Below are positions 26,463-46,306 of a stretch of 64,000 nucleotides of DNA, in pieces. Source of the stretch: Lentzea sp. NBRC 105346 (GTDB taxonomy: Bacteria; Actinomycetota; Actinomycetes; Mycobacteriales; Pseudonocardiaceae); contig NZ_BSTQ01000004.1 in NCBI RefSeq assembly GCF_030269605.1, positions 248,001 through 312,000 on the forward strand, in the 5' to 3' direction. The first letter of the stretch is position 1, and each line of letters opens with the position of its first letter. The notes under the pieces are model-generated. The model was not told the origin of the DNA, made no database searches, and saw nothing but the letters and a program-made list of their open reading frames with translations. Both the position numbers and the translations under genes were made by a program.

Positions 26463-26565
26463 TCATCCGATCCGGTGAGCACTCGAAATCCGGACGCCCG
26501 GGTCAGGTCTGCCCGATGAGCACGTGCCCCCGAAGCACACGTGCACAGGTGGAGGCCTGACCCAG

Positions 26566-27231: not shown

Positions 27232-27264
27232 CCGTGAACCACTCGATCGAGTGGAGGCATGACA

Positions 27265-27385: not shown

Positions 27386-28012
27386 GTGCGTCTGATCCGG
27401 GTCGCGTTGGTCGAATCATTGCCGCTGATGAAGTGCGGTGTTCAGACGGTCGTCTCCGAGCATCCGTTGCTGGAATGGGCGGGCGCGGTGAGCACCACTC
27501 GCGAAGCCGTTGAGCTGTGCGAGTCGGCGCGTCCCGACGTTCTGCTCATCACGTCCGCCAGTGATCCGGGATGGCACCGCTGTCAGCTGCTGACCCGGCT
27601 GTTCCGGCAACTCACCGTGGTGGTGCTGCTCGGTGCGGACGCCCGCACCGCGGACCACATCGCGATGGCCCGCCTGCACGGCGTCCGGGCGCTCGTGCCG
27701 CTGGAGGCCGACCCCGGCCGGCTGGTCGCGGCGATCACCGCGGGCGTCTCGGCCGGTCACTTCGTCGATCCGTCGCTCGCGACGGGGGCGGCGAGCGTCT
27801 CGACGCGCGGGACCAAGTCACTGTCCCGCCGGGAGTACGAGGTGCTGCAGTTGATCGCGGAGGGGCGCACGGCGGTGCAGATCGCCCTGCGGCTGCAGAT
27901 CACCGCCGAGACGGCGCGCACCCACGTGCGCCGCATCCTGCGCAAGCTCGAGGCGAGGGATCGGGCCCACGCCGTGGCGAGGGCCTACGAGCTGTCCGTT
28001 CTGTCGAGGTGA
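27386..28012 (+). CDS. LuxR-family regulator with non-phosphorylatable receiver domain (copy 1)
   Basis: 208 residues from a GTG with AAGAGG upstream. The N-terminal ~120 residues have the NarL/FixJ receiver shape, but key residues are missing. The acidic pair is ES (VALVESLP), the phospho-Asp position reads PDVLLITS, and the switch Thr and conserved Lys are absent (VVLLGAD, LVPLEAD). The C-terminal LuxR helix-turn-helix is intact: LSRREYEVLQLIAEGRTAVQIA and TARTHVRRILRKLEARDRA. It should bind DNA independently of phosphorylation, or through a ligand or partner. It is the paralogue of the gene at 43291, and both are followed by the same small protein and ECF sigma types. Confidence 0.88.
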   Translation: MRLIRVALVESLPLMKCGVQTVVSEHPLLEWAGAVSTTREAVELCESARPDVLLITSASDPGWHRCQLLTRLFRQLTVVVLLGADARTADHIAMARLHGVRALVPLEADPGRLVAAITAGVSAGHFVDPSLATGAASVSTRGTKSLSRREYEVLQLIAEGRTAVQIALRLQITAETARTHVRRILRKLEARDRAHAVARAYELSVLSR

Positions 28013-28035
28013 GATGTTCACGACGAGGTGGTGGC

Positions 28036-28353
28036 ATGTGGTGCGGTCCCTTGACCCGCTGGTTGTTGTCCCGGCGGCGCGAGCTGGTCGTTCCTTACCG
28101 GGACGTGCGCGGCCGGCGGACGATCGCGGTGGTGCGCAAGAGCATGGGGTTCGTGCGGCTGGACGGGGACGGCTTCGGGCCGATCTACCTGTCGGCGTCG
28201 CGGGTCGACCAGCTGCGCGCGGCACTCAGGACGGCGGTGTTCGACCTCGATCGGCTCGACGAGCGGGACGCGGGGCCGGGTCTGGTGGTGGACATCCCCG
28301 CGCAGCGGACCGGCGAGGCGCGACCCGGAAAAGTCGATCACCCGGCGGGGTGA
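28036..28353 (+). CDS. Small conserved protein of the LuxR-ECF cassette (copy 1)
   Basis: 105 residues from the ATG at 28036 (MWCGPLTRWLLSRRRE), 23 bp after the LuxR stop. The core GFVRLDGDGFGPIYLSASRV and QLRAALRTAVFDLDRLDE is matched by the protein at 44179-44463 (FGPVYLSPLQV, RLRAALKTAA). The core looks like a small alpha/beta DNA- or ligand-binding fold. Its repeated position between LuxR and ECF sigma genes suggests a regulatory partner. No named family is recognised. A 7-bp hairpin overlaps the stop (28337-28354). Confidence 0.7.
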   Translation: MWCGPLTRWLLSRRRELVVPYRDVRGRRTIAVVRKSMGFVRLDGDGFGPIYLSASRVDQLRAALRTAVFDLDRLDERDAGPGLVVDIPAQRTGEARPGKVDHPAG

Positions 28354-28485
28354 TGGCACTACCCAATTTTTGGGACGTTCTTCGATGTTTGGCTGCTCGA
28401 TCGTGTGTCCCTTCGCGCTTTGGTGATGTCGGCTTCCTTGCAAGATCAAGCGGTTGTACTTTGTGAGTCCACGTCGGGGCGAGGA

Positions 28486-29274
28486 ATGAAGGGTTTTCAC
28501 GACCACCTTGAGGCGGTGAAAATGGACGGCGAAGTCCACGACATCGAATTCGGCCTGGTAGAGGCGGTTCGGTCGGGGAACCGTAGTGCGTTCAGCGAGC
28601 TCTATCGGCGGAATTTCGCGGCCGCGCACGGCTTCGCGTGCAAACTGACGGGAACGGCGCAGGGTGCCGACGACCTGGTCGCCGAGGCGTTCGTCAAGGT
28701 GTTCACCCGGATCATCGCGGGTGGCGGCCCGACTTCGATGTTCCGCGCCTACCTGCTGACGACCATCCGCACCACCTACTACAAGCAGCTGGCCCGCGAG
28801 CGCATGGTCGACCGGTACGCCGAGGTCACCGACAGCATGCTGCCCGCGGACGACAGCGACCCGTTCACCGACCGGCTCGAGGCCCAGCTGGCGATGAAGG
28901 CGCTCGGGAGCCTGCCGGAGCGGTGGCGGACCGTGCTCGTGCTGCTGGAGCTGGAGCGGCTGACCACGGCGGCGGTCGCGGACCTGCTCGGACTGCGGGC
29001 GAACGCGGTCGCGGCACTGGCGTTCCGCGCCCGTGAGGCGCTGCGGGTCGCCTATGTGCAGATGCACGTCAAGGCCGCGGCCGAGGACGTGTGCCGGGAG
29101 TCGGTGAACAACCTGGCCGCGTTGTTCTGCGGCCGGCTGACCCGTGGCCGGCGGGACCGGGTGCGGGAGCACCTGCGGACGTGCGACGCGTGCGCCAGTG
29201 CCGCGACCGAGGTGTCCGAGCTGTTGGCGCAGCTCGCCCGGCGCGTGCCGCGCACCCGTCCACTCGCGGCCTGA
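28486..29274 (+). CDS. ECF sigma factor with fused C-terminal zinc-finger (ZAS-like) domain (copy 1)
   Basis: 262 residues from the ATG at 28486 (GGGGCGAGGA upstream); another ATG lies 12 codons later. Sigma region 2 is visible as AFSELYRRNFAAAHGFACKL...GADDLVAEAFVKVF, and region 4 as SLPERWRTVLVLLELERL...ALAFRAREALRVAY. The C-terminus continues about 70 residues with LAALFCGRLTRGRRDRV and HLRTCDAC, the Hx3Cx2C pattern of zinc-binding anti-sigma domains. Thus the inhibitor may be built into the sigma factor. It is paralogous to 45488-46306. Confidence 0.88.
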   Translation: MKGFHDHLEAVKMDGEVHDIEFGLVEAVRSGNRSAFSELYRRNFAAAHGFACKLTGTAQGADDLVAEAFVKVFTRIIAGGGPTSMFRAYLLTTIRTTYYKQLARERMVDRYAEVTDSMLPADDSDPFTDRLEAQLAMKALGSLPERWRTVLVLLELERLTTAAVADLLGLRANAVAALAFRAREALRVAYVQMHVKAAAEDVCRESVNNLAALFCGRLTRGRRDRVREHLRTCDACASAATEVSELLAQLARRVPRTRPLAA

Positions 29275-29517
29275 CGCCGATTCGCGAGAGGGTTCTCACT
29301 TCACGCTTGGGGTCACCCGATCGAGTTAACGCACACCAGTGGTCGGAAAATACCGATCCGCGTTGTCCCAGATCTGCGGTAGCGCTGTGTGTGCGCGGTT
29401 GAGAAACCTTGTCACGTTTCGGTTCGATGTGTTCTTCAAGCCACATCGATGTCCGGCGTTCCCCGTACTCTGCTCGCGAGTTGCGCGCCATAGGTCCAGG
29501 AAGGGGCGGGATCGGTA

Positions 29518-30189
29518 GTGCCCTTGCGGGATGTCGTCGGTCTCATGCAGGAAGCCGTGCTGTTGCTGGATGCCGACCGCCGAGTGGAGATGGTGAACAG
29601 AGCCGCGGCCGATCTTCTGGGTGACGAACGCATAGTCGGCCGCACGATCAGTGAGTTCCTCCCCGAGGACACGGCGGCGGTGCTGGGCGATCTATGTGAC
29701 AAGGTCACGGAACCCGGTGCCTGCGTCGAGCACTTCGCCGCGGCACCCGATCCGCTCACCGACCTCGGCCGTGCTCCGTCGATCTCCGTGCGCGTCGCCC
29801 GCGTGGACGACGTCGTGCTGTGCACGTGGCTACCCGGTTGGGTTGGAGACGGAGGCGACCACGAGCAGGTCACCGCGGCGGATCGGATGGAGCTGGCCAA
29901 GGCCGCCGACGCGCTGGGCGACACCGGCTTCGGCCTGTTCTCGCTCGACCTCATGAGCGGCAGGCTGATCGGATCGAGCGGCCTGCGGGTGATCTTCGGT
30001 GAGTCCGATCTCGAGTCGGCCGTGTCGGGCTCCGCTGCCTGGCGGGCACTGATCACGCGCGGAGAGCCGATGGACGTCGAGATCGAGTTGGACTCCGAGC
30101 GCCGGGTGCGGGTGACCGGGCGGGTCGAGGCGGGTGCCGACGGCCATCCCGCTGTCGTGCGCGGGCTGTGCAGCGTCGTGCGGTCGTGA
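29518..30189 (+). CDS. PAS-domain protein
   Basis: 223 residues from a GTG preceded by AAGGGGCGGG. The N-terminal 55 residues form a PAS domain (LMQEAVLLLDADRRVEMVNR, AAADLLGDERIVGRTISEFL). A second PAS-like part begins near residue 125 (MELAKAADALGDTGFGLFSLD). There is no kinase, GGDEF or HTH output, so it is probably a sensory partner protein. It stands between the ECF sigma gene and the glycan operon, separated from them by 243 and 96 bp. Signal unknown. Confidence 0.72.
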   Translation: MPLRDVVGLMQEAVLLLDADRRVEMVNRAAADLLGDERIVGRTISEFLPEDTAAVLGDLCDKVTEPGACVEHFAAAPDPLTDLGRAPSISVRVARVDDVVLCTWLPGWVGDGGDHEQVTAADRMELAKAADALGDTGFGLFSLDLMSGRLIGSSGLRVIFGESDLESAVSGSAAWRALITRGEPMDVEIELDSERRVRVTGRVEAGADGHPAVVRGLCSVVRS

Positions 30190-30285
30190 ACCCGCGTTTC
30201 TGACGCGGCGCAAGCATTTCCGGGGCACGTCAGTCTTTCGTGTGTTCGCGGATAACCGACGCGCGGCGAACTGATCTGTCACTGC

Positions 30286-31686
30286 GTGCGCGAACTTCGG
30301 GAATGCAACGCGTCCGGCGCCCTCGACGCCACGAGACGCAGGCTCCTGCTGACGGGAATCGACGTGTCGGCGTGGGCGATCGCGATCACCACTGTGACGT
30401 GGTTCCGGCTCGCCCGGGATGCGACATACGTCGATGCCGTCCGGCTCCTGTGTTTCATCCTGCTGGTCCTCGCGATGGTCCCGGTCGTCGGCATGGCCGC
30501 GCGCCTTTACCAGGGGCGGGTGGGCGGCATCGAGGAGTCGGTGCGGCTCGCGTGGGTCGCATTGCTCACCGGAGTGCTGGCCGCCGCCATGGATTTCGTG
30601 GTTCCGCTGGTGCCCCAGGCGATCCCGATGAACGCGGCCCTCGTCGCGGTGGTCATCGGCTGGTCGGCACGGCAGGTGATCCGCCGCGACTACGCGAGCA
30701 CGCGGCGAGTGATCGTCTTCGGTGCGGGTGACACCGGGGAGCGGCTCGCGCGCTCCATGATGGACGTACCCGATTGCGGGTACCAGCCGGTGGCGTTCCT
30801 CGACGACGCGCCGGTTCAGCGGGTGTCGCGGATCGGCGGCGTACCGGTCCGCGGCACCCGCCACGACATCGCGAAGGTGGCGGCGCGAACCGGCGCTTCG
30901 CTGCTCGTCCTGGCCGTGCCCTCCGTTGACGCCGAGGTCCTGCGGGCGGCGCACGACGCAGGCCTGGAAGTGCTGGCACTCCCGGACGACGCGCCCGAGG
31001 CGGATGTCGCCGACCTGCACGTGCTCGACGCCGTCGCACCACCCGCCGGTGCCGTCCGCGAACACCTCGCGGGCAAGCGGGTCCTGGTCACCGGTGCGGC
31101 CGGGACGATCGGTGCCGAGCTGTCCCGGCAGATCCACCAGGCCGGGCCCGCCCGGCTGTTCCTCCTCGATCGTGACGTGCCGGGGTTGCACGACGTGCGC
31201 GGGTCGATCGGCGGTGCGGACGTCCTGCCGGTCGACATCCGCGACTCCGAGGCCGTGCGCGGGGTGTTCGCGCGGTGCCTGCCCGAGGTGGTGCTGCATG
31301 CTGCGGCGTTCCAGCACGGGCGGTACCCGCTGGAAGCGTGGCGCACCAACGTGCTCGGCACGTACTACGTCCTGGAGGCGGCACTGTCGGCCGGTGTGCG
31401 CACCTTCGTCAACATCTCCGCGGACGAGGCCGCCGACGCGACGTGCGTCCTCGGCCGCTCCGAGCGCATCGGCGAACGCCTGACGGCCGACGCGGCGGCC
31501 CGCTCCGGTGGCGAGTACCTGTCCGTGCGGCTCGGCGACGCGAGCCCGGACGCGGTGCGGCAGGTGCTCACCCAGCGGCCGGCCGGGGTCGCCGCGCCAC
31601 CGCTCGATCCCGCGCACCTGTTGTCGCTCGCCTTGGGGGACAACGAGATCGCCGCGATGACCGAGTGCGCGGGTATCGCCTCGTGA
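30286..31686 (+). CDS. CapD/FlaA1-like polysaccharide biosynthesis protein, catalytically degenerate
   Basis: 466 residues from a GTG. Four N-terminal membrane helices (to about 125) are followed by a first Rossmann domain (VIVFGAGDTGERLARSM) and an NAD-binding SDR domain (RVLVTGAAGTIGAELSRQIH). This is the layout of membrane nucleotide-sugar 4,6-dehydratases, but shorter than the usual ~600. The catalytic STDKA...MGxxK segment reads SADEAADATCVLGRSERIGE, so the key lysines are replaced. It may act as a scaffold or an altered enzyme. The stop overlaps the epimerase start (GTGA). First gene of the glycan operon. Confidence 0.8.
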   Translation: MRELRECNASGALDATRRRLLLTGIDVSAWAIAITTVTWFRLARDATYVDAVRLLCFILLVLAMVPVVGMAARLYQGRVGGIEESVRLAWVALLTGVLAAAMDFVVPLVPQAIPMNAALVAVVIGWSARQVIRRDYASTRRVIVFGAGDTGERLARSMMDVPDCGYQPVAFLDDAPVQRVSRIGGVPVRGTRHDIAKVAARTGASLLVLAVPSVDAEVLRAAHDAGLEVLALPDDAPEADVADLHVLDAVAPPAGAVREHLAGKRVLVTGAAGTIGAELSRQIHQAGPARLFLLDRDVPGLHDVRGSIGGADVLPVDIRDSEAVRGVFARCLPEVVLHAAAFQHGRYPLEAWRTNVLGTYYVLEAALSAGVRTFVNISADEAADATCVLGRSERIGERLTADAAARSGGEYLSVRLGDASPDAVRQVLTQRPAGVAAPPLDPAHLLSLALGDNEIAAMTECAGIAS

Positions 31687-32630
31687 AGGTCGTTGTCACC
31701 GGCGGCGCCGGATTCATCGGCGCCAACCTCTGCCGTGAGCTGGCCGGTCGAGGGGCCGACGTGGTGGCGCTGGACGATCTCAGCACCGGGCGGCGCGAGA
31801 ACCTCGCCGGACTCGATGTGGAACTGCGCGTGCAGTCCGTGCTCGACCGTGACGCGGTGATGTACGCATGCGGGGGTGCCGACGCGGTGGTGCACCTCGC
31901 GTCGGTCCCGTCCGCGACGCGGTCACTGGTGAATCCGCGGCACAGTCACGACGTCAACGCGACGGGTGCGCTGGAGGTGCTGGAGGCCGCCTGCGCGGCC
32001 GGAACCTCCGTGGTGCTCGGCTCTTCGGGCTCCGTGTACGGCCGCAACCCGGCGTTGCCCAGGTCGGAGGAAATGGCCTGTACACCGCTGAGCCCGTACG
32101 CCACGGGAAAGCTCGCGGCGGAGCACTACGCGTTGTCCTTCCAGCAGTGCTTCGATCTCCCGTGCGTCGTGTTCCGCTGCTTCAGCGTGTTCGGACCGTT
32201 GCAGCGTCCCGATCACCCGTACTCCGCGGCCGTGCCCGCCTTCATCTGGGCGGCGCTGCGCGGCGAACCGCTTGTCGTGTACGGAAACGGCGAACAGACC
32301 AGGGACTTCACGTTCGTGGACTCGGTCGTGGACGTGCTGGCCGAGGCCGTGCGGCTCAGGTTCAGCTGTGCCCGTCCGGTGAACCTGGCGTTCGGCACGC
32401 GCACGAGTATCAACGAGCTCATCGCACTGCTGTCCGCCCTGTTCGGCCGCGAGCTCGACGTCGTGCGCAGGCCGGCCCGCGCGGGAGAGGTGCGGCACTC
32501 CCAGGCGTCCGGGTCCGTGCTGCGCCGGGCGTTCCCGCGGGTCAAGCCGATGCCGCTGGAGATCGGGCTCAGCCGGACCATCGAATGGGCGGAACGGTTG
32601 CTGCACGCGGAGAACAGGTCCACCGCATGA
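31683..32630 (+). CDS. NAD-dependent nucleotide-sugar epimerase/dehydratase
   Basis: 315-residue extended SDR, UDP-glucose 4-epimerase-like. It has NAD motif VTGGAGFIGANL, catalytic Ser/Thr in LGSSGSVYG, YxxxK as YATGK, and a substrate loop FGPLQRPDHPYSAAVP. The C-terminal NLAFGTRTSINELIALL is typical of WbpP/GalE-type enzymes. It starts at a GTG overlapping the preceding stop and overlaps the next start (ATGA). It probably supplies a modified sugar nucleotide to the glycosyltransferases that follow; the exact sugar is unknown. Confidence 0.9.
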   Translation: MKVVVTGGAGFIGANLCRELAGRGADVVALDDLSTGRRENLAGLDVELRVQSVLDRDAVMYACGGADAVVHLASVPSATRSLVNPRHSHDVNATGALEVLEAACAAGTSVVLGSSGSVYGRNPALPRSEEMACTPLSPYATGKLAAEHYALSFQQCFDLPCVVFRCFSVFGPLQRPDHPYSAAVPAFIWAALRGEPLVVYGNGEQTRDFTFVDSVVDVLAEAVRLRFSCARPVNLAFGTRTSINELIALLSALFGRELDVVRRPARAGEVRHSQASGSVLRRAFPRVKPMPLEIGLSRTIEWAERLLHAENRSTA

Positions 32631-34693
32631 GTTCAGCGTTGCGCGTTCTGCTGGTGTTCGAGACCGACCGGGGATGTGCGTGGGCGGTGCCGCAGGCCGA
32701 CGCGTTGCTGCAGCGGGGACACGAGGTGGTCGCGTTGCTGCCGCCCGGTGACGGCGATCTGCGGCACGTGCTCGCCGAGCGAGGTGTGTCCGTTGTGGAC
32801 AATCCGCTCGGCGTGCGGCCATCGATCGCCGGCGTTGTGCGGTTGCGGCGCACATTGCGGCAACTCGCGCCCGATGTACTGCTCCACCACCGGTTCACCT
32901 CGGCGCTCGCGATTCGGATCGCCGGTGCCGCGCTCGGGGTGGCGTGGGTGCGGATGGTCGCCGGGGCGAGCCACCTGGAGGCTCGATCGGCCCGAACCGT
33001 CGAACGGGTTCTCGCCCGGTTGGATTCGGTCACCGTGTGCGCGAACCGCTTCACGGCGCGGGCCTACCGGGCGATCGGCCGGCCGACCGGCCGGACTCCC
33101 ATCATCCCCTACGGGGTGGACACCCGGCTGTTCCGGCCGGTGGGGCCGGCGGAACGAGCCCAGGTCCGCGTCCGGCTCGGCGTCGCCGACGAGGACTTCG
33201 TCGTCATCATGGTCCCGCCGGCCCAGTTTGGCCACAAAGGATCGCACGAGGTGGTGCTGGCGGCGTGGCGCAGGTTCCGCGTCGAGCACCCCGGCAGCCA
33301 CCTGCTGCTCGTCGGCGCAGGTGAAGCGGGTGCCCGGCACCGGGCGAGGCACGCTGCGGCGATGCGGCCCGGTGAAGAGAAAACGGTGACCTGGCTGGAC
33401 ACCGTGGAGGACGTCCGTCCGTACTACGGTGCGGCCGACCTGAGCGTCTCTCCGTCGCGGTCCGGCTGCCACGGCAATGTGCTGGAGGCGAGCGCGATGG
33501 GTGTGCCCAGCGTGGTCGGCGACGCCGGCGGCCTGCCGGAGGCGGTCGACCCCGCCGCGTGCTGGGTGATACCGGCGGACGACCCCGGCGCGCTCGCGAC
33601 CGCGCTGCACGAAGCCTGGGCGGAGCACCGGATCGGCGGCCTGTCCGAACGCGGGGAGGCCGTGCGCGACCGGGTCGTGCGGTGCTTCGACAGCACGCCG
33701 GCGGCGGAGGAACTGGCGGACGTGCTGGAGAGAAGCGCGGACCGTGGGCGGGTCAGCCTGTTCGCCGAGCAGAGGTGTGCCGGCGACTCCGAGGTCTACA
33801 GCGATCGGGTGCGCCTCTTCACGAGCCTCTCGGCGATCGTGCGCAAGGTGCTGCGGGCACGCGTGATCGTGGTGCGGCAGCCGGGCGCGATCGGCGTCGT
33901 GGCCGCGACCGTGTGCAAACTGTTGCGCCGCGAGTATTTCGCCGAGGTCGTCGGCGACCCGGCCGACGTGCCGACCACAGGCCTGCTCGGGCGGACGCTG
34001 GCACGTGCGCTGATGCGCCGGGTCGTGCGAGAGGCGTCGGCGGTGCGGTACATCCCGGACGGCCTGTTGCAGCGCCGCTACCCGGCGGCTCCGGGACGTT
34101 TCACCACGGGCGTGCCCGACGCGCAGGTGTGCCGCACCGAGGCGCGGGACTGGCGTCCCGCGCCGCACCAGATCATCGCGATCGGTGACCAGGACCGGCC
34201 GCACCACGGGCACGACGTGCTGCTCCGTGCCGTGCGCAGGTTGCTGGACGACGACCTCGACGTGCGGGTGGTGCTGGTCGGTGGCGGCAGGAGACGCGAT
34301 GGTCTGATCGCGCTCGCCGGGAAACTGGGCCTCGCCGACCACGCCCACTTCACCGGACCACTGCCCTACGGCGAGGTCGTCGCCGGGCTGCTGAACTCCG
34401 CCGACCTCTTCGTGGCGCCGTGCGCGGCGGGAACGGCGCACTCGTTGATGACGGCGATGGCGTACGCGTTGCCCGCGGTGGGCACGTGCGCGGGCGGCAT
34501 CCCGGACCTGCTCGAACCGGACTGCCTGGTGCCGCCGGGCGATGACGCGGCACTCGCGACGGCCGTGCGGCGGTTGCTGACGGACAAACGGGCGTGGGAA
34601 CAGCAGTCCCGCCGCAACCTCGAGGCCGCCCGCGCGTCCGGCGGCCTGCCCGAGTGGCTGTCCATGACCACGACCTGGGAAAGGACGACATGA
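32627..34693 (+). CDS. Fused double glycosyltransferase (two GT4-type modules)
   Basis: 688 residues, roughly twice a single GT-B enzyme. Module 1 (about 1-370) has PYGVDTRLFRPVG, a nucleotide-sugar region LLLVGAGEAG and the donor motif SPSRSGCHGNVLEASAMGVP. Module 2 (about 375-688) repeats the plan with IIAIGDQDRPHHGHDVLLRA, VVLVGGGRRRDGL and CAAGTAHSLMTAMAYALPAV; the usual E-x7-E motif is altered (H/M in place of the first Glu). There is no stop or frame change between modules. It may add two successive sugars or keep one module as a non-catalytic partner. Coupled to both neighbours by ATGA. Confidence 0.87.
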   Translation: MSSALRVLLVFETDRGCAWAVPQADALLQRGHEVVALLPPGDGDLRHVLAERGVSVVDNPLGVRPSIAGVVRLRRTLRQLAPDVLLHHRFTSALAIRIAGAALGVAWVRMVAGASHLEARSARTVERVLARLDSVTVCANRFTARAYRAIGRPTGRTPIIPYGVDTRLFRPVGPAERAQVRVRLGVADEDFVVIMVPPAQFGHKGSHEVVLAAWRRFRVEHPGSHLLLVGAGEAGARHRARHAAAMRPGEEKTVTWLDTVEDVRPYYGAADLSVSPSRSGCHGNVLEASAMGVPSVVGDAGGLPEAVDPAACWVIPADDPGALATALHEAWAEHRIGGLSERGEAVRDRVVRCFDSTPAAEELADVLERSADRGRVSLFAEQRCAGDSEVYSDRVRLFTSLSAIVRKVLRARVIVVRQPGAIGVVAATVCKLLRREYFAEVVGDPADVPTTGLLGRTLARALMRRVVREASAVRYIPDGLLQRRYPAAPGRFTTGVPDAQVCRTEARDWRPAPHQIIAIGDQDRPHHGHDVLLRAVRRLLDDDLDVRVVLVGGGRRRDGLIALAGKLGLADHAHFTGPLPYGEVVAGLLNSADLFVAPCAAGTAHSLMTAMAYALPAVGTCAGGIPDLLEPDCLVPPGDDAALATAVRRLLTDKRAWEQQSRRNLEAARASGGLPEWLSMTTTWERTT

Positions 34694-35784: not shown

Positions 35785-35797
35785 GCCGCTTCTTGGC

Positions 35798-35832
35798 GTG
35801 GCGCCGCCCGACGAGGGGCCGGGCGGCGCCAC
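35798..35832. terminator. Hairpin terminator after glycan operon
   Basis: A perfect 13-bp GC-rich stem (35798-35810 with 35820-35832) around a 9-base loop lies between the convergent glycosyltransferase and 159-residue protein genes. Confidence 0.75.
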
Positions 35833-35873
35833 ACCCGCGCTTCGGCACACACCGAAGGAGCGCGCCGTAGCTG

Positions 35874-36353: not shown

Positions 36354-36492
36354 CACAGTGCGACATTCTTACCTTGTCGTGCCTGGTGAATCGCGCTGCT
36401 TCACACGAACTCGTGAGATCTGCGATTCGTCCGTCATCGGTTCCTGATTCGCGGTCTTCATCCGGAGAACCACGAGTGGATGGAGCGGATCG

Positions 36493-39400: not shown

Positions 39401-42120
39401 CCGGCACCGGCTTCCTCGGCACGGCAACGCTCACGAGCGCGGGGCAGATCCTGACGAAGGACGCGTGCGTGGCGGCGCCGAACGTCGTGATCACCAAGCA
39501 GCCGGTCGGAGATCCGGTGCCGGGTAACGATGGCACGTTCACCCAGGTCTACGACATCACCGTGACCGACGTCGGTGCCGGCGCGACCAGGTATGACCTC
39601 GTGGACGAGCTGCGCTTCGGTGCGGGGGCCGAGGTGCGGGCGGCGTCGATGACGAACACCGCGCCGGGCACGGTGCCCGTCAACCCGTCCTGGGACGGTA
39701 CGACGAACCTTTTCGCCGCGACCGCGATCACCATCGGCGGGGGCGTCTCGCACACCTATCGCGTCACCGCGACCGTCGCCCCGGATCCCCATGTGACCAC
39801 CGGCGCCGCCGCGGACTGCGTCGTCGATGCAGGTGAGACGGGTACGGGTTTCCGCAACGTCGCGACCGCCACCCAGAACGGCAAAGCTTTGGAGGCCGAC
39901 GCATGCACCGCGCCACCGGCCATCACGGTCGCCAAGAAGGTGACCGGCAGCGTGCAGAACGGCGACGGCACCCACACCGTCACCTACGAGGTCACCGTCG
40001 CCAACGGCGGTGCGGGCGACGGGAGCTACGACCTCGCCGACAGCCTGGAATACGGCGACGGTGTCACCGTCACCGTCGCGGGGGTGGCCGGGCCCGCGGG
40101 CACCAGCACCGCGTGGAACGGCGAGACCGATCCCATGCTGGCCGCCGACGTGCCGATCGGCGGCAACACCAGCCACGCCTACGTGATCACCGTGACGTCC
40201 GCCCCACCCGAGAACCCCGTTGCGGGCACACTCGACTGCACGCTCGATCCCGGTGAGAGCGGAACGGGAGCCCGCAACACCGCCACGCTGATGAGCAACG
40301 GTGTCAGCGACGTCGCGACCGCGTGTGCCGCGTTCCCGGACCTTTCGATCACGAAGCGCGTGCGGTCCGGTTCGCCGGTGTTCAACGGGGACGGCACCTA
40401 CACGGTTCACTACGAGATCGACGTCACCAATGCCGGAGCCGAGGCGACGACCTACGACCTGACCGACGAACTGTTGCCCGGCAACGGGATCGCCGTCGTC
40501 TCGGCGACGTCGTCGGCGAACCCGTTGTGGAACGGCGCCGGCGTACAGAACGTCGCGACCGGCGTCGGTATCGCCGCGGGTGCGACCAACACGTATCTCC
40601 TCACCGTCACCTACACGGTCGATCCCACCGCCGCGTCGAGCGAGTCCATGGACTGCGTGCTGGACAACGGTGAGGAGGGCACGGGATTCCTCGGCCGGGC
40701 GGCCGCCGTCAGCAACGGGGTCGAGCGGCGGGCGGAGGCCTGCGCGGAGGCGACGCTGCTGTCGATCACGCAGAAGCTGGCGGAGCCCGTGCGGCCCAAC
40801 GGGAACGGCTCCTACACCGCGGTCTACGACATCACGGTGACCAACGCCGGCGCGGGCGCGGCGACCTACGACCTCACCGACCGGTTGCGGTTCGGTGAGG
40901 GGGTGCGGATCGACTCCGTGCAGGCGAGCGCACTCGACGACGCGCCGATGCCGAGCGGCTCGTGGGATGGCCGGGCCAACGATCGATTGCTGGATGACGC
41001 CCTGATCGCGGGCGAGGACGAGCACGTCTACCGCGTCACGGCGATTGTGACACCGTTGGGTACCGGGAAGGCGACCGACTGCGTCCTGGACCCCGGCGAG
41101 ACCGGGACCGGACTGCGCAACGTCGCCACGCTCACGAGCAACGGGATCGAGCAGGAAGCCGTTGCGTGTGAAGGCGTTCCCGCCGTCTCGGTGCGGAAGG
41201 ACGTCGAGCGGGTGTCGCCACGCGGGGGCGGCGAGTACGCGATCGACTATCGGATCACCGTGGCGAACGACGGCGCGACCGGCACTTCGTACAGCCTGCA
41301 CGACACCCTGCGGTTCGGTACGGGCACCGTTGTCGAGTCGGCTGCGATCGCCGGAGTGTCCGGTTGGGACGGACGGCTGACCACGTTGGTAGGCGCGGAC
41401 ATCCCGTTGGGTGCGGGCGAGCACCACACCTATACCGTGTCGGTCGTGGCCGCTCCACCCGCGGACGCCCGTGCCGACGCGTTCGACTGCGCGCTCGCCC
41501 AGGACGAGGAAGGAACCGGGACGCTGAACACCGCCGCGGTGGTGGTCAACGGGGTCACGACCACGGCCAACGCCTGCGCACCCTTTCCCGGCGTGACGGT
41601 GACCAAGGCCGTACTGCCCGGTTCCCCCGAGATCGGACCGGACGGCGAGGTCGTCGTCGGTTATCGGATCACCGTGACGAACAACGGAACCGTGGACACG
41701 GCTTACGACCTGGACGACGAGTTGCGGTTCAGTGACGGCGACACGATCACCCGCGCCACCGCGGAGCGGAGCGCAGGTGCCGCGTCCATGAATGCTGGCT
41801 GGAACGGGCGCACCGACCGGCGGGTCGCGAGCGAGGTCCCGCTGGCGGCCGGCGGCGTCGACACCTACATCGTTTCCGCGCACGTCAAGCGGGACAGCGC
41901 CCGGCCGGAGGTCATGGCCTGCGAGACCGGCGGCGGGTTGCGCAACGCGGCGGCGGTGACCGTCAACGGGACGCGGCGCAGCGCCGAGGCCTGTGCGCCG
42001 GCGCCGGCCGATTCCCTTGCGGTGACCGGGTTCGACGTCGGGCTGCTGGCCAGGCTCGGCGGTGTGCTGCTGCTTGGCGGGATCGTGCTGATGCTGGTCA
42101 CGCGCCGCCGCAAGGGCTGA
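36493..42120 (+). CDS. Giant DUF11-repeat surface protein with LAXTG sortase anchor
   Basis: 1875 residues. A signal peptide (about 1-30) precedes an N-terminal adhesin-like region of some 430 residues. About ten DUF11-type beta domains follow, starting near residues 463, 594, 720, 862, 998, 1144, 1284, 1424, 1566 and 1702. Each opens like ITKTA...GDxxTYTITVxNxG. The last eight carry a conserved Cys plus a GETGTGFRNxAT turn, suggesting intradomain disulfides. The C-terminus has LAVTG (1842-1846), a hydrophobic helix and RRRKG, a class E-type sortase signal. It would be covalently wall-attached, probably a fibrous adhesin. No sortase gene is in the window. Start ATG after GGAG. Confidence 0.92.
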   Translation: MTWWTRLTGVCAVAVLLATVITPASVIAAGQEARSGNIANTHIRSPQTFFAYLAPGQNLDASFVKTTDNTGASVRDVTITVRRPGAAPLTCLVPDTLPVGSGCYFPDLTGGAGIWSVDFAMSCAPATFCSGDKFDWDVTVQSGATDVPGRVWTEKYALNQGATEVPVDLSFWYQSEFGYTYQGNYRQYNGIDSTVAADNFGVVQTGTCTPAYQSSANLQVAGGTCGGVFKVFFEPPANDLPVSATRWDGATDWIKPPVAPDPTITNATFTPDAPGSRSGALTFDLNDYSGAFRVTVDANDDGDVSDPVDRTIPVTAAEGPVSVPFDGRDGTGAPIPSSRSVSFQVIVDRIAEIHFTNADVELRGGIEVTRLNGPLAGRKTLYWNDTGFTYPDPGRCSTTPVLDGRAGMDSTGGVHGWDLGTCGSVGGANGTDGGWGNNRVIDDWTYVPVLVAQTVRLPGHDVRITKTASAPTARPGDVITYTITVENAGSFTYTAADPVVVNDDLIGVLDDAMVTGIPSATTGTVVYNSPVVSWAGAMAPGDKATITYSVRVNQPDNGDRTLVNAVTSDTPGANCFTGATDPACVTTVRVPALKITKTADRAEYHPGDTVGYTITIANDGEIPFTAADPASFIDDLTDVLDDAVFTVDDVTASSGTVGYTSPILSWSGPLAVGESATVSYIVNASEPDYGNGVMRNVVTGSPGAAINCVVCDVTLESRVVSLSKNVVSTTPNADGSFTIVYDVTVTGAGSAPSTYDLSDELRFGAGVTVQATDVIDLSGDTVNVGWNGGTTTSVVTGVSIDPGESDVYRMTVTATPGPATTGAATDCATDTGETGTGFRNTATVTGTGGEVTAQACAPIPRLVLKKLVRPLQHNGDGTYTVTYRIDVVNLGSAPATYDLTEALRFGTGLSATGTTLAANPAWDGGSTPAVVTGRDIQPDETHTYFATVVATVDPATAAAATDCTLDSGETGTGFLGTATLTSAGQILTKDACVAAPNVVITKQPVGDPVPGNDGTFTQVYDITVTDVGAGATRYDLVDELRFGAGAEVRAASMTNTAPGTVPVNPSWDGTTNLFAATAITIGGGVSHTYRVTATVAPDPHVTTGAAADCVVDAGETGTGFRNVATATQNGKALEADACTAPPAITVAKKVTGSVQNGDGTHTVTYEVTVANGGAGDGSYDLADSLEYGDGVTVTVAGVAGPAGTSTAWNGETDPMLAADVPIGGNTSHAYVITVTSAPPENPVAGTLDCTLDPGESGTGARNTATLMSNGVSDVATACAAFPDLSITKRVRSGSPVFNGDGTYTVHYEIDVTNAGAEATTYDLTDELLPGNGIAVVSATSSANPLWNGAGVQNVATGVGIAAGATNTYLLTVTYTVDPTAASSESMDCVLDNGEEGTGFLGRAAAVSNGVERRAEACAEATLLSITQKLAEPVRPNGNGSYTAVYDITVTNAGAGAATYDLTDRLRFGEGVRIDSVQASALDDAPMPSGSWDGRANDRLLDDALIAGEDEHVYRVTAIVTPLGTGKATDCVLDPGETGTGLRNVATLTSNGIEQEAVACEGVPAVSVRKDVERVSPRGGGEYAIDYRITVANDGATGTSYSLHDTLRFGTGTVVESAAIAGVSGWDGRLTTLVGADIPLGAGEHHTYTVSVVAAPPADARADAFDCALAQDEEGTGTLNTAAVVVNGVTTTANACAPFPGVTVTKAVLPGSPEIGPDGEVVVGYRITVTNNGTVDTAYDLDDELRFSDGDTITRATAERSAGAASMNAGWNGRTDRRVASEVPLAAGGVDTYIVSAHVKRDSARPEVMACETGGGLRNAAAVTVNGTRRSAEACAPAPADSLAVTGFDVGLLARLGGVLLLGGIVLMLVTRRRKG

Positions 42121-42128
42121 CCGCGGTG

Positions 42129-42232
42129 GCTACGTGAGGTCCGGCTGGCGAACGTGGCGTTCAGGTACATCTATGTCCTCAGTCGTCACGTTCGCTACGT
42201 CGGCCGGCCCTCGCTACGTGAGGTCCGGCTGG
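42129..42232. repeat. 20-bp direct repeat flanking the truncated receiver gene end
   Basis: GCTACGTGAGGTCCGGCTGG occurs at 42129-42148 and 42213-42232, 84 bp apart. The second copy contains the stop of the receiver-only gene; the first lies just after the DUF11 gene. Confidence 0.85.
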
Positions 42233-42630
42233 ACGTAGTGACCGATCTCGATGGCAGCGCGGATCGCCTCGCGCAGGCAGTCGGCGTCGGTGTTCAGGCC
42301 GACGAGGCCGTGCACCCCGTGCAGCCGGGCCCAGGCCGCGGCCACCGCGGTGCGCGACTGCCTGCGCAGCAACGCGACGACGACCAGCGTGGGGAACATG
42401 GACGTCAGCAGCAGCGACATGTCCCACCGCGGGTCGTCGGCCGAGTCGACCAGCAACACGTCCGGGCATTCGTTGTGGCACAGATGGATCGCGGAGTCCG
42501 CGTCCGGTGCCGAGCCACGCCACGTCAGCTCCGGACTTTCCCTGATCACCTGGGCGACCCCTCGTTCCAGCGACGGCTGGGAGCTGACGAGGGCGACGCG
42601 CAACACACGCGTCGGCACACTGCTGATCAC
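42214..42630 (-). CDS. Receiver-only paralogue of the LuxR regulators (HTH missing)
   Basis: 138 residues from a GTG with AGGAGG upstream. It aligns with the receiver halves of the proteins at 27386 and 43291: LRVALVSSQPSLERGVAQVI, CPDVLLVDSADDPRWDMSLL, ARLHGVHGLVGLN. Unlike them, it keeps an Asp at the phosphorylation position (LLVDS), though the acidic pair is absent. The frame stops right where the linker to the HTH would begin, inside a 20-bp direct repeat. It may be a deletion derivative or a working single-domain antagonist of the full-length paralogues. Confidence 0.72.
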   Translation of the reverse strand: MISSVPTRVLRVALVSSQPSLERGVAQVIRESPELTWRGSAPDADSAIHLCHNECPDVLLVDSADDPRWDMSLLLTSMFPTLVVVALLRRQSRTAVAAAWARLHGVHGLVGLNTDADCLREAIRAAIEIGHYVQPDLT

Positions 42631-42826
42631 GACTCAGATCCTCCTGCGGAGATGGACAACGTCGTTGGTAGAGACCGCGGGCGGACCCGCATTACGCGCG
42701 GATGCCGAGGTTCGCTCGCTCCGGTGAAATCGCGATCTCGCGCGTAAGCGGTTCGGCGGCTGAGGTCATCCATCGTGATGCGTTCGAACGATCAACGCAC
42801 GGGGCAACGATGGTGAGGAGTGGGGC

Positions 42827-43294
42827 ATGTCGCGCCGCAGGGCAGCGGGCAAACACCGATTGGTACCGCCGGGAAAGAAGCGGTCCAAGTGCACCGACTG
42901 CACGAGGAGGACACTCTTGGCCGCGCTTCTCGTGCCGCTCGCGGCCCTCATCGGCGGGGTGTTCGACTCCGTGTCCAGGGGACCGGACGCCGTCGCGAAC
43001 GTCATCGAGCCCGCGCGGGTGCAGGTGCCCGAACACGTGGTCACCGTGACCGTGCCACCGGCGCCGCCGGTGACCGTGACAGCACACCCGTCCGCGGCCG
43101 CCGCGCCCGCCGCGGCTGCCGCACCCGCCGCGCCGGTCGTCTCCACCAACTCCCCGGTGGAGCGCCACCAGCACAGCACGGCACCGGTTCCCGCGCGCTG
43201 CACGACGCACGTGCGTCCCACGGTGCCACCCGCGGCCGCCATGTCGGTCGGCGTGCTGCCCGGCCGCGGGCACCAGCCGGTGAAGTGCGAGTGA
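42827..43294 (+). CDS. Pro/Ala-rich membrane-anchored protein
   Basis: 155 residues from an ATG after GAGGAGTGGGG. It has a basic cytoplasmic N-terminus with CTDC, one transmembrane helix (about 29-46, LLAALLVPLAALIGGVF), and an extracellular Pro/Ala/Val-rich tail with a final Cys pair region (ARCTTHVRP, VKCE). It looks like a bitopic stalk or sensor; the membrane-proximal CxxC could bind metal or redox partners. No family recognised. Its stop overlaps the LuxR start (GTGA), so the two are co-translated and may cooperate in signalling. Confidence 0.65.
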   Translation: MSRRRAAGKHRLVPPGKKRSKCTDCTRRTLLAALLVPLAALIGGVFDSVSRGPDAVANVIEPARVQVPEHVVTVTVPPAPPVTVTAHPSAAAAPAAAAAPAAPVVSTNSPVERHQHSTAPVPARCTTHVRPTVPPAAAMSVGVLPGRGHQPVKCE

Positions 43295-43962
43295 GCACGG
43301 TAGCGGCCACCGCGGAGACGTTCGCCCATCGGCGGCTCAAGGTCGCGCTGATCGACTCGGTGCCGTTGCTGCGCCGGGGTGTGCAGACCGTGGTCGGCGC
43401 CGATCCCGCGCTGGTGTGGGTCGACGCCGTGAGCGGTGCGCGGGCGGCCATCGAGCTCTGCGAGCGCCAGGAGCCGGACGTCGTGCTGATCAGCTCGCGC
43501 AGCGATCCCGGCTGGAAGCTGTGCGAGCTGCTCACCCGTCTGTTCCGGGACCTCACCGTGGTGGCGTTGCTCGGTGACGGCGCGCGAAACGCGGAGGCGA
43601 TGGCGCGGGCACGGTGTCACGGCGCCCGCTCGCTGGTGCCGATCGAGGCGGACGCCGACCGGCTCGTCGCGGCGATCCGGCTGGGCGTCGACCTCGGCGA
43701 CTTCCTGGACCCGCAGCTGCACGCGCGCTTCGGGCCCGTGTCGTCCGTCTCGGCCACCAGGAGCAAACCGTTGTCCCGCCGCGAACTCGAGGTGCTGCAC
43801 CTCGTCGCGGAAGGACGTACCGCCGTGAACATCGCCGGCCGGCTCGGCATCACGCCCGAGACCGTGCGCACGCACGTGAACCACCTGCTGCGCAAGCTGG
43901 AGGCGAGGGACCGTGCGCACGCCGTGGCCAAGGCGTTTCAGATGTCGCTCCTGTCTGGATAA
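43291..43962 (+). CDS. LuxR-family regulator with non-phosphorylatable receiver domain (copy 2)
   Basis: 223 residues, starting at a GTG that overlaps the preceding stop. It is clearly paralogous to 27386-28012: VALIDSVPLLRRGVQTVVG, PDVVLISSRSDPGWKLCELL, and an HTH with LSRRELEVLHLVAEGRTAVNIA and TVRTHVNHLLRKLEARDRA. The receiver lacks the phospho-Asp (LLISS pattern), the acidic pair and the lysine. The HTH is intact. It heads the second regulatory cassette. A signal could reach it through the membrane protein it is coupled to (inference). Confidence 0.88.
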   Translation: MSTVAATAETFAHRRLKVALIDSVPLLRRGVQTVVGADPALVWVDAVSGARAAIELCERQEPDVVLISSRSDPGWKLCELLTRLFRDLTVVALLGDGARNAEAMARARCHGARSLVPIEADADRLVAAIRLGVDLGDFLDPQLHARFGPVSSVSATRSKPLSRRELEVLHLVAEGRTAVNIAGRLGITPETVRTHVNHLLRKLEARDRAHAVAKAFQMSLLSG

Positions 43963-44178
43963 CGCACCTCCGGGTGACGCCGCGACGTGACTCGTAATGC
44001 GTGCGACACCGTGGGGTCCATATTCAGGGCAACGGACATGCCCCGCCACGGCTGGTGAATCTTCGGGCAGCCGACCGTGGCTTCCGTTGCCGCGAGGGGC
44101 CGTGGCGGTGGGTCATTCTCCTTCCCCGCCGCCGCGGTCCTGTCGTCCGTCGTCCGACCGACGAGGAGCTGGTTGTTC

Positions 44179-44463
44179 GTGAGTCATCGCTGCCGGAAAG
44201 TGTCCCTCTCGTCGATTCTGGCGCGGTGGAGGTCGCGCTGGGAATCCGCCTCCCCGCCCGAGGGCGACGGGTCGGACCGGCGGTGTGATCCCGCGATGGT
44301 TGTTCGTGTCGGTCCGGGATGCGTTGCGCTGGAAGGAACTTCCTTCGGGCCCGTGTACCTGTCGCCGCTGCAGGTCGGCCGCCTGCGCGCGGCGTTGAAG
44401 ACCGCCGCGGCACAGCTCCCGCTCGACGAGCTAGCCCTCGAGCCGGTGGCGCGGTGGTCGTGA
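44179..44463 (+). CDS. Small conserved protein of the LuxR-ECF cassette (copy 2)
   Basis: 94 residues from the GTG at 44179, ten bases after GAGGAG. The frame is open to 44077, but the extra part has no counterpart in the paralogue. The core VRVGPGCVALEGTSFGPVYL and QVGRLRAALKTAAAQLPLDE matches the small protein at 28036. It is followed after 10 bp by the QueD-like gene. Function unknown; conserved placement implies a role in this regulatory unit. Confidence 0.65.
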   Translation: MSHRCRKVSLSSILARWRSRWESASPPEGDGSDRRCDPAMVVRVGPGCVALEGTSFGPVYLSPLQVGRLRAALKTAAAQLPLDELALEPVARWS

Positions 44464-44473
44464 CCTCCAGGCC

Positions 44474-44866
44474 ATGTACGAGATCGTCGAGCACTACAAC
44501 TTCGTTGCCACACACGAAATCCCGGGACTGCGTCCCACCCACCCCTGTCACGGTGTCCACATGCACCAGTGGTCGGTCGAGGTGGTGCTGCTGTCGGCCG
44601 CACTGCTGCCGACCGACGGCCCGGCCGAGACCGCGGCGCTGGAACCGTTGCGCAGATACGTGACGAGCGAACTCGAGGCACGCCACCTCAACGACGTGCT
44701 CATTGGTGATCCGACGCCCGTACGGCTCGCGGGCCATCTCGTCAGTTGGTGCCGATGCCACCTGCCCGGCTTCGTGGCCGAGACGCTGCACAGCGTCTCG
44801 GTCTCGGCGGGGCGCGCGACGCGCGGACGCTGCATCGTCTCGCGCGGTCAGGGTGGTCTTCGTTGA
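44474..44866 (+). CDS. QueD/6-pyruvoyl-tetrahydropterin synthase-like protein
   Basis: 130 residues, the family's usual size. Zinc ligands are H14 (FVATHEIP), H29 and H31 (GVHMHQW). The catalytic cysteine matches C25 (HPCHG). The later LDHHxLND region reads LEARHLNDVL, so the Asp/His proton relay is changed to Glu/Ala, and the glutamate that binds the pterin near the C-terminus is not obvious. It may bind a pterin-like ligand or do a different reaction. No other queuosine/deazapurine genes are nearby. It sits in the second LuxR-ECF cassette, 10 bp after the small protein. Confidence 0.75.
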   Translation: MYEIVEHYNFVATHEIPGLRPTHPCHGVHMHQWSVEVVLLSAALLPTDGPAETAALEPLRRYVTSELEARHLNDVLIGDPTPVRLAGHLVSWCRCHLPGFVAETLHSVSVSAGRATRGRCIVSRGQGGLR

Positions 44867-44878
44867 TCGGAGGCGAAG

Positions 44879-45262
44879 TTGGGTGGTCCGCAGTTCTGGG
44901 AAGCACTCCGTCAGCACCCGTGTCTGGCGGAACTGGCCGAGCTGGCGCGGCCGGGACGTGGCTGGGTGTTCCTGCCCGCGTTCTGCAACGGCGTCGAGTG
45001 CCTCTTCGGCGTGCACGTGGGCGAGTTCGTCAGCGAGACGATCATCGTGCGGTCGGAGGAGGACGTGACCGTCGCGCGGCTGCGCAACGACGACTTCCTC
45101 GAGCCCCGGCGTTCGGGCATGCCGCAGGTGGTGCTGTGGGAGTACACGGGAACGCTCGTCGACGCGCTCCAGGAGCTGCGCGAGCTGCCCGGCCACGACC
45201 ACCCGGCGGCGCCCAAGCTGCTCCGGCCCGCTTCCTCGATGTTCGTCATCGCGGACAAGTGA
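44879..45262 (+). CDS. Hypothetical protein, 127 residues
   Basis: It begins at a TTG with GGAGG five bases upstream, 12 bp after the QueD-like stop. It reads MGGPQFWEALRQHPCLAELA. An alpha/beta pattern with RGWVFLPAFCNGVECLFGVHV and VTVARLRNDDFLEPRRSG is visible. Two Cys in FCNGVEC could form a metal or redox site. No family recognised. By position it belongs to the same operon as the QueD-like gene. Confidence 0.6.
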   Translation: MGGPQFWEALRQHPCLAELAELARPGRGWVFLPAFCNGVECLFGVHVGEFVSETIIVRSEEDVTVARLRNDDFLEPRRSGMPQVVLWEYTGTLVDALQELRELPGHDHPAAPKLLRPASSMFVIADK

Positions 45263-45487
45263 ATTCGATTGTGTCGCGGAGCGAACGAATTGCACTACAC
45301 CGGGCTCCCTTCATCACCGCATCGGGGTACGCCTCCACAATTTTCGGGATGCGACGTCGTGGCCGTGTAACCACCCTGGTGCCGGTTAGGTGGAAAAGCC
45401 ATCGGAATGGAGACTCGTGCACTGCGTTTCACCTCGGCTCGTTGTAGCTTTATCACGCGTGGAGTACCGGACGAAGGGGCAGGTGAG

Positions 45488-46306
45488 ATGAGCGACGATC
45501 GTGACGCCGACGAACGGGGTGATATCGACACCTATCTCCTGAATGCCGTGCGACGTGGCGATCGGGAGGCTTTCGGCATCCTGTATCGCAAATACCACTC
45601 GTGTGCGCACAGCTTCGCCTGCCGCCTGCTGGGCGGCTCCCAGGGTGCGGACGACCTCGTCGCCGAGGCCTTCACCAAGGTGCTCAGGAGGATCACCTCC
45701 GGCGGAGGTCCCGCGGTCCTGTTCCGGGCCTACCTGCTCACGACGGTGCGCACCACGTTCTACAAGCAGCTGGCGGGGGAACGCCTGGTCGACCGGCAGG
45801 TCGAGCTGTCCGACCTGGTCGAGCCGACCCTCGAGCGCGACCCGCTGATCGAGAAGTTCGACGCGGACCTCGCGGTGCGGGCACTGGAGAGCCTGCCGGA
45901 GCGGTGGCGGAACGTGCTGGTCCTGCTGGAGATCGAGAAACGACCGACGAGCGTGGCGGCCGCCATGCTCGGCCTGCAGCCCAACGCACTCGCCGCGCTC
46001 GCGTTCCGGGCGCGCGAGGGACTTCGCGTCGCGTATGCGCAGATGCACGTCAAGGCGGCGGCGAACGAGGAGTGCGCGTTGCCCGCGCGGAACCTCGCCG
46101 CGTGGTTGTGCGGCCGGCTGGGCCGCGGCCTGCGCGTCCGCGTCCAGCAGCACATCGACTCCTGCGACCTGTGCTCCGGCGCCGCGATCGAGCTGTCGGA
46201 CCTCCTCGCGCAGCTGCGCCGGTCCGCGCCGTTGTCGATCTCGCTGCCCTCGCCCGCCGACCGGCGCGCCGCACACCATTCGCTCACGCTCGCATCGGCG
46301 TTCTGA
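45488..46306 (+). CDS. ECF sigma factor with fused C-terminal zinc-finger (ZAS-like) domain (copy 2)
   Basis: 272 residues from the ATG at 45488 (GGGGCAGGTGAG upstream). It is a close paralogue of 28486-29274 throughout: region 2 AFGILYRKYHSCAHSFACRL...GADDLVAEAFTKVL, region 4 SLPERWRNVLVLLEIEKR...ALAFRAREGLRVAY, and the C-terminal NLAAWLCGRLGRGLRVRV with HIDSCDLC. The Cys/His cluster suggests a redox- or zinc-responsive built-in anti-sigma domain. The next gene downstream, the acidic secreted protein, is a candidate target. Confidence 0.88.
   Translation: MSDDRDADERGDIDTYLLNAVRRGDREAFGILYRKYHSCAHSFACRLLGGSQGADDLVAEAFTKVLRRITSGGGPAVLFRAYLLTTVRTTFYKQLAGERLVDRQVELSDLVEPTLERDPLIEKFDADLAVRALESLPERWRNVLVLLEIEKRPTSVAAAMLGLQPNALAALAFRAREGLRVAYAQMHVKAAANEECALPARNLAAWLCGRLGRGLRVRVQQHIDSCDLCSGAAIELSDLLAQLRRSAPLSISLPSPADRRAAHHSLTLASAF

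Follow-up and report, generated by a model that had tools for sequence, protein, structure and literature searches.

The 64,000-nucleotide stretch of the Lentzea sp. NBRC 105346 genome analyzed here (contig NZ_BSTQ01000004.1, positions 248,001 to 312,000; G000:C4:248001-312000, where G000 denotes this 9.4-Mb genome; hereafter, the window) contains two copies of a regulatory cassette, each encoding, in the same order, a LuxR-type regulator, a small protein and an extracytoplasmic function (ECF) sigma factor. On balance, we lean toward the view, drawn from sequence comparison, that the two cassettes constitute a duplicated, local, phosphorylation-independent circuit for a surface glycan, a surface protein and a pilus, which would operate in the manner of the BldM and WhiI regulators of Streptomyces, with a sigma factor added. 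The duplication itself, proposed in an initial annotation of the window, was confirmed: copy 1 (27386-29274) and copy 2 (43288-46306) match at the DNA level at 73% across the ECF part and 70% across the LuxR part. All three pairs of proteins are paralogous (LuxR1/LuxR2, 62% identity; ECF1/ECF2, 59%; small1/small2, 37%), and the kinship of the small proteins, on which that annotation had staked its claim, is borne out by a search of the same genome, in which small2 was the only other match of small1 at E ≤ 0.001 (E 6e-8). Genes in this order recur elsewhere, too, twice in each of the six cassette-carrying Lentzea genomes (carriers, including G000) and once in a Saccharothrix metagenome-assembled genome (MAG). 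Gene starts were derived from a codon-usage gene caller and alignment with relatives; small2 was overlooked by the gene caller and was located through its motif.

Degenerate receivers, unanchored sigma factors and accessory proteins

LuxR1 and LuxR2 consist of a receiver-like domain followed by a NarL/LuxR-type helix-turn-helix (HTH), and NarL was the sole PDB match at E ≤ 1e-20 (E 2e-22). In all 13 LuxR sequences aligned with NarL and a canonical regulator, the phospho-Asp position is occupied by T, S or C, S or T takes the place of the second acidic residue (DD2), and the Lys is missing. The third homologue in the locus, the stand-alone receiver REC3, has Asp at the phospho position in 7 of 7 sequences and has lost both metal-binding acids and the Lys; neither REC3 nor the PAS-domain gene that follows ECF1 figured in the initial annotation. 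No kinase was recognized among the scanned window genes of the locus. Because the receivers are degenerate and no kinase gene is adjacent, conventional Asp phosphorylation is unlikely to control LuxR1 and LuxR2.

These properties are shared with BldM and WhiI (PMC4125116, in excerpt), orphan regulators whose phosphorylation pocket is likewise degenerate or unused and whose 16-bp TCAC...GTGA palindrome is represented in Lentzea by candidate sites; according to the same excerpt, the ECF sigma factor that serves bldM otherwise targets surface proteins. Unlike the Streptomyces system, the Lentzea locus combines two paralogues with a stand-alone receiver and includes the sigma factor gene within the same cassette, and its regulators are not orthologous to BldM. 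Orthology of LuxR1 and LuxR2 with BldM was considered and rejected: they are 26% and 29% identical to BldM, compared with 53% for another gene of the same genome, the BldM candidate G000:C5:175995-176582. As a separate observation, a stand-alone relative of LuxR1/2 recurs in Pseudonocardiaceae (L006, L189, L190 and L195); at the last three of these loci, it adjoins a similar 616-626-aa gene, and at L006, its receiver is partly degenerate.

Sigma region 2 (PF04542) scores above the cut-off in both ECF1 and ECF2; region 4 (PF08281) does so in ECF1 and reaches 23.0 bits vs a cut-off of 25.7 in ECF2. The C-terminal part of ECF1 matches zf-HC2 just under the cut-off (E 2e-4, 21.6 vs 22.2 bits), with no match for ECF2, and the C203, H229, C233 and C236 residues of this zinc-finger-like stretch are invariant in 10 of 10 sequences. 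Neither protein contains a transmembrane (TM) helix (hydropathy maximum of 1.5 and 1.4, compared with 2.3 and 2.1 in two long forms) or a proline-rich extension or carbohydrate-binding domain (they end at 262 and 272 aa, with no such Pfam hit). With an ECF domain followed by a putative zinc-finger, anti-sigma-like domain, ECF1 and ECF2 resemble the ECF52 group (e.g., SCO4117), in which membrane and extracellular parts come next (PMC5826349 and PMC8999054, both in excerpt), and differ from it in the absence of the TM, proline-rich and extracellular parts as well as in the sub-threshold zinc finger. Across the family, the next best ECF relatives are parts of long open frames, and the two examined combine ECF, zf-HC2, a hydrophobic segment and a further C-terminal part; because no carbohydrate-binding family was found in these two, ECF52 is invoked here as a comparison of layout and not as a proven assignment.

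Both small proteins of the window contain the FGPxYLS core described in the initial annotation, and yet this core is not conserved in copy 1, where the position reads ETI(H/R)LS in 5 of 5 orthologues from relatives. The structural model of small1 has a predicted local distance difference test score (pLDDT) of about 85 in the core and 69 on average, and that of small3 has a mean of 81. The QueD-like protein of copy 2 resembles QueD and 6-pyruvoyl tetrahydropterin synthase in matching PF01242 above the cut-off and in retaining the zinc-binding His triad and the Cys, which do not vary among the 10 aligned sequences; it differs in the replacement of LDH with LE(A/G) and of a Glu with Ala in 7 of 7, that is, in the loss of what we take to be the catalytic Asp-His and the pterin-anchoring Glu. 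No queuosine gene was recognized in the locus in Pfam scans of the called genes. Further QueD-like matches were found in seven genomes of the phylum (best E 7e-18), and at the three of these loci that were read, the gene adjoins what appear to be queuosine or FolE-type genes.

The 13 cassette-type small members scanned matched no Pfam family. A profile search additionally detected two weaker members of the small family in each of 24 Lentzea genomes, one adjoining a conserved gene that we take to be reductase-like and the other a presumably XRE-like regulator; in the window's own genome, these two are located at G000:C9:289011-289265 and G000:C11:205475-205675 (about 66-97 aa). The XRE-like neighbor, together with small- and small3-related genes that adjoin genes resembling XRE and DUF397 in other genera (L039 and L191), would be expected if small1, small2 and small3 were not signaling parts and the cassette had captured them as satellites of the XRE-DUF397 type, a proposed class of toxin-antitoxin-like pairs. 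We regard this as highly improbable: an hmmscan search, without a profile-profile comparison, yielded no DUF397 match up to E 10 for any of the 13 small members, no XRE gene is present among the genes called in the cassettes, and both copies are in the same order in the six carriers. The likeness to XRE-DUF397 pairs is that small proteins are tied to regulators in actinomycetes (PMC10364602, in excerpt), whereas the partners in the cassettes are LuxR and ECF proteins.

Conserved candidate sites and their possible binders

Candidate DNA sites, located by sequence, are scattered over the promoters of the locus (Table 1). Alignments of upstream regions revealed the palindrome CACTCGNNCGAGTG upstream of the LuxR1 and PAS genes; its exact form occurs once in the window, upstream of LuxR1. 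A matrix built from the sites of LuxR1, ECF1, PAS and the OmpR-type regulator of the Tad-pilus locus (RR; 57815-58546, minus strand) ranks the sites at 27239 and 29313 at the top of the window, followed by those at 58611 and 36401. In leave-one-group-out scoring over 5-6 species, the z values of the trained groups were 10.0 (LuxR1), 11.9 (ECF1), 9.9 (PAS) and 11.0 (RR), and those of promoters outside the training set were 6.9 (gene 26524), 5.8 (DUF11 surface protein), 4.3 (epim1), 4.0 (small2), 2.7 (TM) and 2.4 (REC3), compared with -0.9 (AlaRep, the Ala-rich repeat gene), 0.0 (methyltransferase), 0.6 (Lsr2), -0.5 (TadG), 1.6 (GT_a) and 1.7 (ECF2) for other promoters of the locus. The PAS gene start in G013 was called late, which placed its site outside the 260 bp tested; this site was seen in the whole-locus scan.

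The pattern TCACYCGNNCGRGTGA has two matches in the window at ≤1 mismatch (28338 and 29313, both in cassette 1), a count reached in 1 of 60 shuffles, and eight matches at ≤2 mismatches, compared with a shuffle mean of 2.1 and maximum of 6 (60 shuffles, none of which reached 8), although seven of these eight had already been seen when the pattern was drawn up. Seven of these matches are intergenic and one is on a stop codon, in a window that is 13% intergenic. Upstream of gene 26524, another conserved site lies some 44 bases farther from the gene in the relatives, and in Saccharothrix, a site with two mismatches to TCACYCGNNCGRGTGA is likewise found in the REC3/TM region.

Several results weigh against a local circuit operating through these sites. 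In the window alone, the sites at 58611 (15.4) and 36401 (12.0) score below the best of 20 shuffles (16.9) and are not significant; the z values are inflated because the shuffles treat related species as independent; and in the leave-one-group-out test, no site was found at the ECF2 or AlaRep promoters. At ≤3 mismatches, the TCACYCGNNCGRGTGA 16-mer is as frequent as expected by chance (21 matches vs a mean of 21.4), and the 14-bp core at ≤2 mismatches occurs less often in the window than chance would predict (4 vs 9.7). Footprint ranks among 245 footprint windows are mixed (gene 26524, 2; TM, 6; LuxR1, 8; DUF11, 10; epim1, 40; RR, 79; PAS, 113; for this ranking, the RR site of G000 was unaligned with the others and G013 was without an aligned PAS region). 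Genome-wide, the exact 14-mer is only somewhat above the control (3 vs 1 in G000; 69 vs 48 over 24 genomes) and is present in 21 of the 24 genomes, including those without cassettes. Finally, neither small1 nor small3 produced a PDB fold match below E 0.6. The case for the sites rests on the best of them, their position and their conservation.

The broad occurrence of the 14-mer also favors the principal rival explanation, namely, that the palindromes serve the BldM-like protein of this genome or another chromosomal NarL-type regulator, so that the locus would be a target of a general developmental program and the cassettes would act elsewhere or downstream. The sites resemble the published BldM consensus, TCACcCgnncGgGTGA (PMC4125116, in excerpt), more closely at ECF1 and at the REC3/TM promoter, and the BldM candidate described above is encoded in the genome. 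Nevertheless, the two strongest matrix sites of the window lie at the cassette's own promoters, and the LuxR1, PAS and RR sites often read CACTCG whereas BldM prefers CACCCG; we judge this explanation to be unlikely.

Two further observations concern the non-coding sequence. A second conserved element, approximately AATTNTGGGGATG, is present upstream of ECF1 (28365) and, inverted, of the Ala-rich repeat gene (46336, minus strand), with weaker copies near ECF2 and the methyltransferase gene, and is seen in relatives, too. In the Saccharothrix MAG, a perfect CACTCGAACGAGTG is found near position 111850 of contig G313:C96, within a gap between genes that separates the cassette from the glycan genes; a 238-aa gene follows 179 bases later. 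The motif KTGTAGYTTTG was tried as an ECF promoter element and rejected, being no commoner than chance in the window.

Surroundings, distribution and history of the cassettes

Table 1. Genes and candidate DNA sites of the cassette locus (window coordinates)
Feature	Position	Strand	Description and basis
LuxR1	27386..28012	+	NarL-type regulator with degenerate receiver, phospho-Asp to Thr; GerE PF00196 E 1e-15, residue table
small1	28036..28353	+	FGPxYLS-type small protein; model with four strands and a long helix
ECF1	28486..29274	+	sigma factor with C-terminal zinc-finger-like domain, no TM; Pfam, invariant C/H/C/C, hydropathy
PAS-domain protein	29518..30189	+	PF08448/PF13188
Glycan operon	30286..35784	+	polysaccharide-type dehydratase, epimerase, two group-1 glycosyltransferases; Pfam
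DUF11-repeat surface protein	36493..42120	+	1875 aa; C-terminus LAVTG, TM, RRRKG
REC3	42214..42630	-	stand-alone degenerate receiver homologous to LuxR1/2 receivers, no HTH
One-TM protein	42827..43294	+	overlaps LuxR2 start; hydropathy
LuxR2	43288..43962	+	LuxR1 paralogue, degenerate receiver
small2	44179..44463	+	small1 paralogue
QueD-like protein	44474..44866	+	PF01242/PTPS E 7e-7; zinc ligands present, catalytic Asp-His and pterin Glu lost
small3	44879..45262	+	no Pfam match; model with two helices, five strands and a C-terminal helix
ECF2	45488..46306	+	ECF1 paralogue
Related site	26463..26478		upstream of TM-protein gene 26524-27126
Palindrome CCACTCGATCGAGTGG	27239..27254		upstream of LuxR1; 6/6 carriers, degenerate in G018
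Site TCACCCGGCGGGGTGA	28338..28353		upstream of ECF1, overlaps small1 stop; 1 mismatch to TCACYCGNNCGRGTGA; same place in 5/5 relatives
Palindrome TCACCCGATCGAGTTA	29313..29328		upstream of PAS; 6/6 carriers
Weaker site	30230..30245		upstream of glycan operon
Related palindrome TCACACGAACTCGTGA	36401..36416		upstream of DUF11 surface protein; 6/6 carriers
Weaker site	42712..42727		shared REC3/cassette-2 promoter region
Palindrome-like site	58611..58626		upstream of RR; 5/5 read, other distance in window

The REC3 gene is divergent from the cassette-2 operon, which is followed by genes for an Ala-rich repeat protein, Lsr2 and a methyltransferase, and then by the Tad-pilus locus. The claim that the cassettes bracket a glycan operon and giant surface proteins holds for the glycan operon and for the DUF11-repeat protein (53-57% in relatives); the giant-protein genes at 49608-57458 lie outside, between the methyltransferase gene and the Tad-pilus locus, and in 4 of 4 relatives read there, no match to their products was found between the methyltransferase and the OmpR-type regulator. 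The products of this region are a camelysin-type protein (PF12389), a protein resembling S26 signal peptidases and one of 2128 aa that contains LamG/DUF2341 domains. On the other side, the locus is adjoined by a gene for an S8 protease (24915-26462), with copies at E ≤ 1e-150 numbering 4 in G000, 2-4 in carriers and 0-1 in the 18 other genomes.

Homologues of the glycan operon are present at the locus in the relatives and in Saccharothrix. Alternatively, the cassettes could stand beside surface genes by history rather than by function and control something else, such as development or specialized metabolism, given that SCO4117, the ECF52 factor that is the studied layout relative of these sigma factors, acts on metabolism and differentiation (PMC5826349, in excerpt). 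This possibility appears quite unlikely because the cassette and the glycan operon are found together in two genera, and the surface-protein and glycan-operon promoters, which were outside the training set, outscore the other promoters compared.

Strong pairs of small proteins were detected by profile search in 6 of the 24 genus genomes, that is, the window's own, G007, G013, G016, G018 and G020. The two cassettes, REC3, the glycan genes and the DUF11 protein are arranged alike in all five relatives; the content of the glycan block differs among them, and the G013 locus is split between two contigs. The PAS gene directly follows ECF1 in 6 of 6 carriers and the single ECF gene in the Saccharothrix MAG, and REC3 is present in all seven of these genomes. 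The OmpR-type regulator of the Tad locus (E ≤ 1e-70) is found in exactly the same 6 of the 24 genomes, and the grouping of the carriers in a single clade was rejected (approximately unbiased test, p 1e-5), with four state changes on a tree of one core protein that has one long branch and includes 21 of the 24 genomes (for the other three, the gene was not in the fetched DNA). Because the carriers of both loci are the same and do not form one clade, the block is patchy, with the cassette locus and the pilus regulator apparently coming and going together.

Beyond Lentzea, ECF matches of the ECF1/2 grade were obtained in 1 of 396 phylum genomes (the own one) and in 5 of 200 family genomes (a draw without G016 and the Saccharothrix MAG). 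Strict small3 matches (E below 1e-29) came from 8 of 297 family genomes, namely, the six Lentzea, G083 and the Saccharothrix MAG; in the 20 kb of G083 that were read, the only other cassette-type gene was one for a 971-aa LuxR-type protein (E 4e-11); at E ≤ 1e-5, small3 relatives are common (154 of 297). At 10 loci of the next-best LuxR homologues, no small, ECF, QueD or small3 gene was found among the called genes within about 9 kb.

The Saccharothrix MAG (L087, contig G313:C96) has a single cassette, with REC3 on one strand and then TM-LuxR-small-QueD-small3-ECF-PAS-AlaRep, adjoining homologues of the Lentzea glycan genes; positions 72000-164000 of the 230-kb contig revealed no second cassette. 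In phylogenetic trees, copy-1 and copy-2 proteins form separate groups, each with all sampled Lentzea; the Saccharothrix sequence is unresolved against both, so that the order of the three lineages is not settled. Because the only outgroup has one cassette complete with QueD, small3, REC3, the TM gene and PAS, copy 2 is suggested to be nearer the ancestral form and copy 1 to be a reduced duplicate; this polarity relies on one MAG, which is thin evidence. The initial annotation, which described copy 2 as expanded by the TM, QueD-like and small3 genes, was right about the presence of these genes, while their direction of change looks to be the opposite. The ancestral unit was probably organized as in Saccharothrix, with REC3 divergent from TM-LuxR-small-QueD-small3-ECF-PAS, and was duplicated across the glycan block in Lentzea. 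The simplest history involves duplication in or before Lentzea, followed by loss of the accessory genes from copy 1.

A proposed circuit and its relation to known systems

In the circuit that we favor, LuxR1 and/or LuxR2 would form homo- or heterodimers (compare BldM and BldM-WhiI) that bind the palindromes and activate the regulators and the surface operons, and ECF1 and ECF2 would provide promoter recognition upon release by their own zinc-finger domains. REC3 may tune dimerization by pairing with the LuxR receivers, and small1/2, small3 and the catalytically altered QueD-like protein might feed signals into the LuxR or sigma proteins. A more specific version, which we consider rather doubtful and advance tentatively, is that the three degenerate receivers constitute a combinatorial, phosphorylation-free dimer switch, in which different pairings would read different versions of the palindrome (the CACTCG type at the regulators and pilus, and the TCACACGAA type at the surface protein), REC3 would be a brake on dimerization, and the QueD-like protein, with its zinc ligands kept, and the small proteins would serve as signal input; the partner of the switch would be a soluble sigma factor with an anti-sigma domain of its own.

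The module belongs with known kinds of systems (BldM/WhiI-type regulators and ECF52-like sigma factors) and is not a new kind. A description of it was not found in the literature among the matches listed (titles and abstract starts), where Lentzea combined with ECF sigma returned unrelated work only. The dedicated control of the cell surface postulated in the initial annotation survives in a narrower form: the palindromes shared by the regulators, the surface protein and the pilus regulator favor a local system, and the 49608-57458 genes are outside the conserved locus as far as it was read.

The DNA sites, REC3 and the receivers make the finding more interesting than that annotation stated. 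What turns degenerate receivers on and off is still an open question (PMC12632262, in excerpt), and here two degenerate-receiver regulators, a stand-alone receiver, and candidate sites and targets are assembled in one locus of roughly 35 kb. Thanks to the natural duplication and the single-cassette outgroup, the dimer combinations and the signal input are directly testable, and candidate control can be named for the surface glycan, the surface protein and the Tad pilus in Lentzea.

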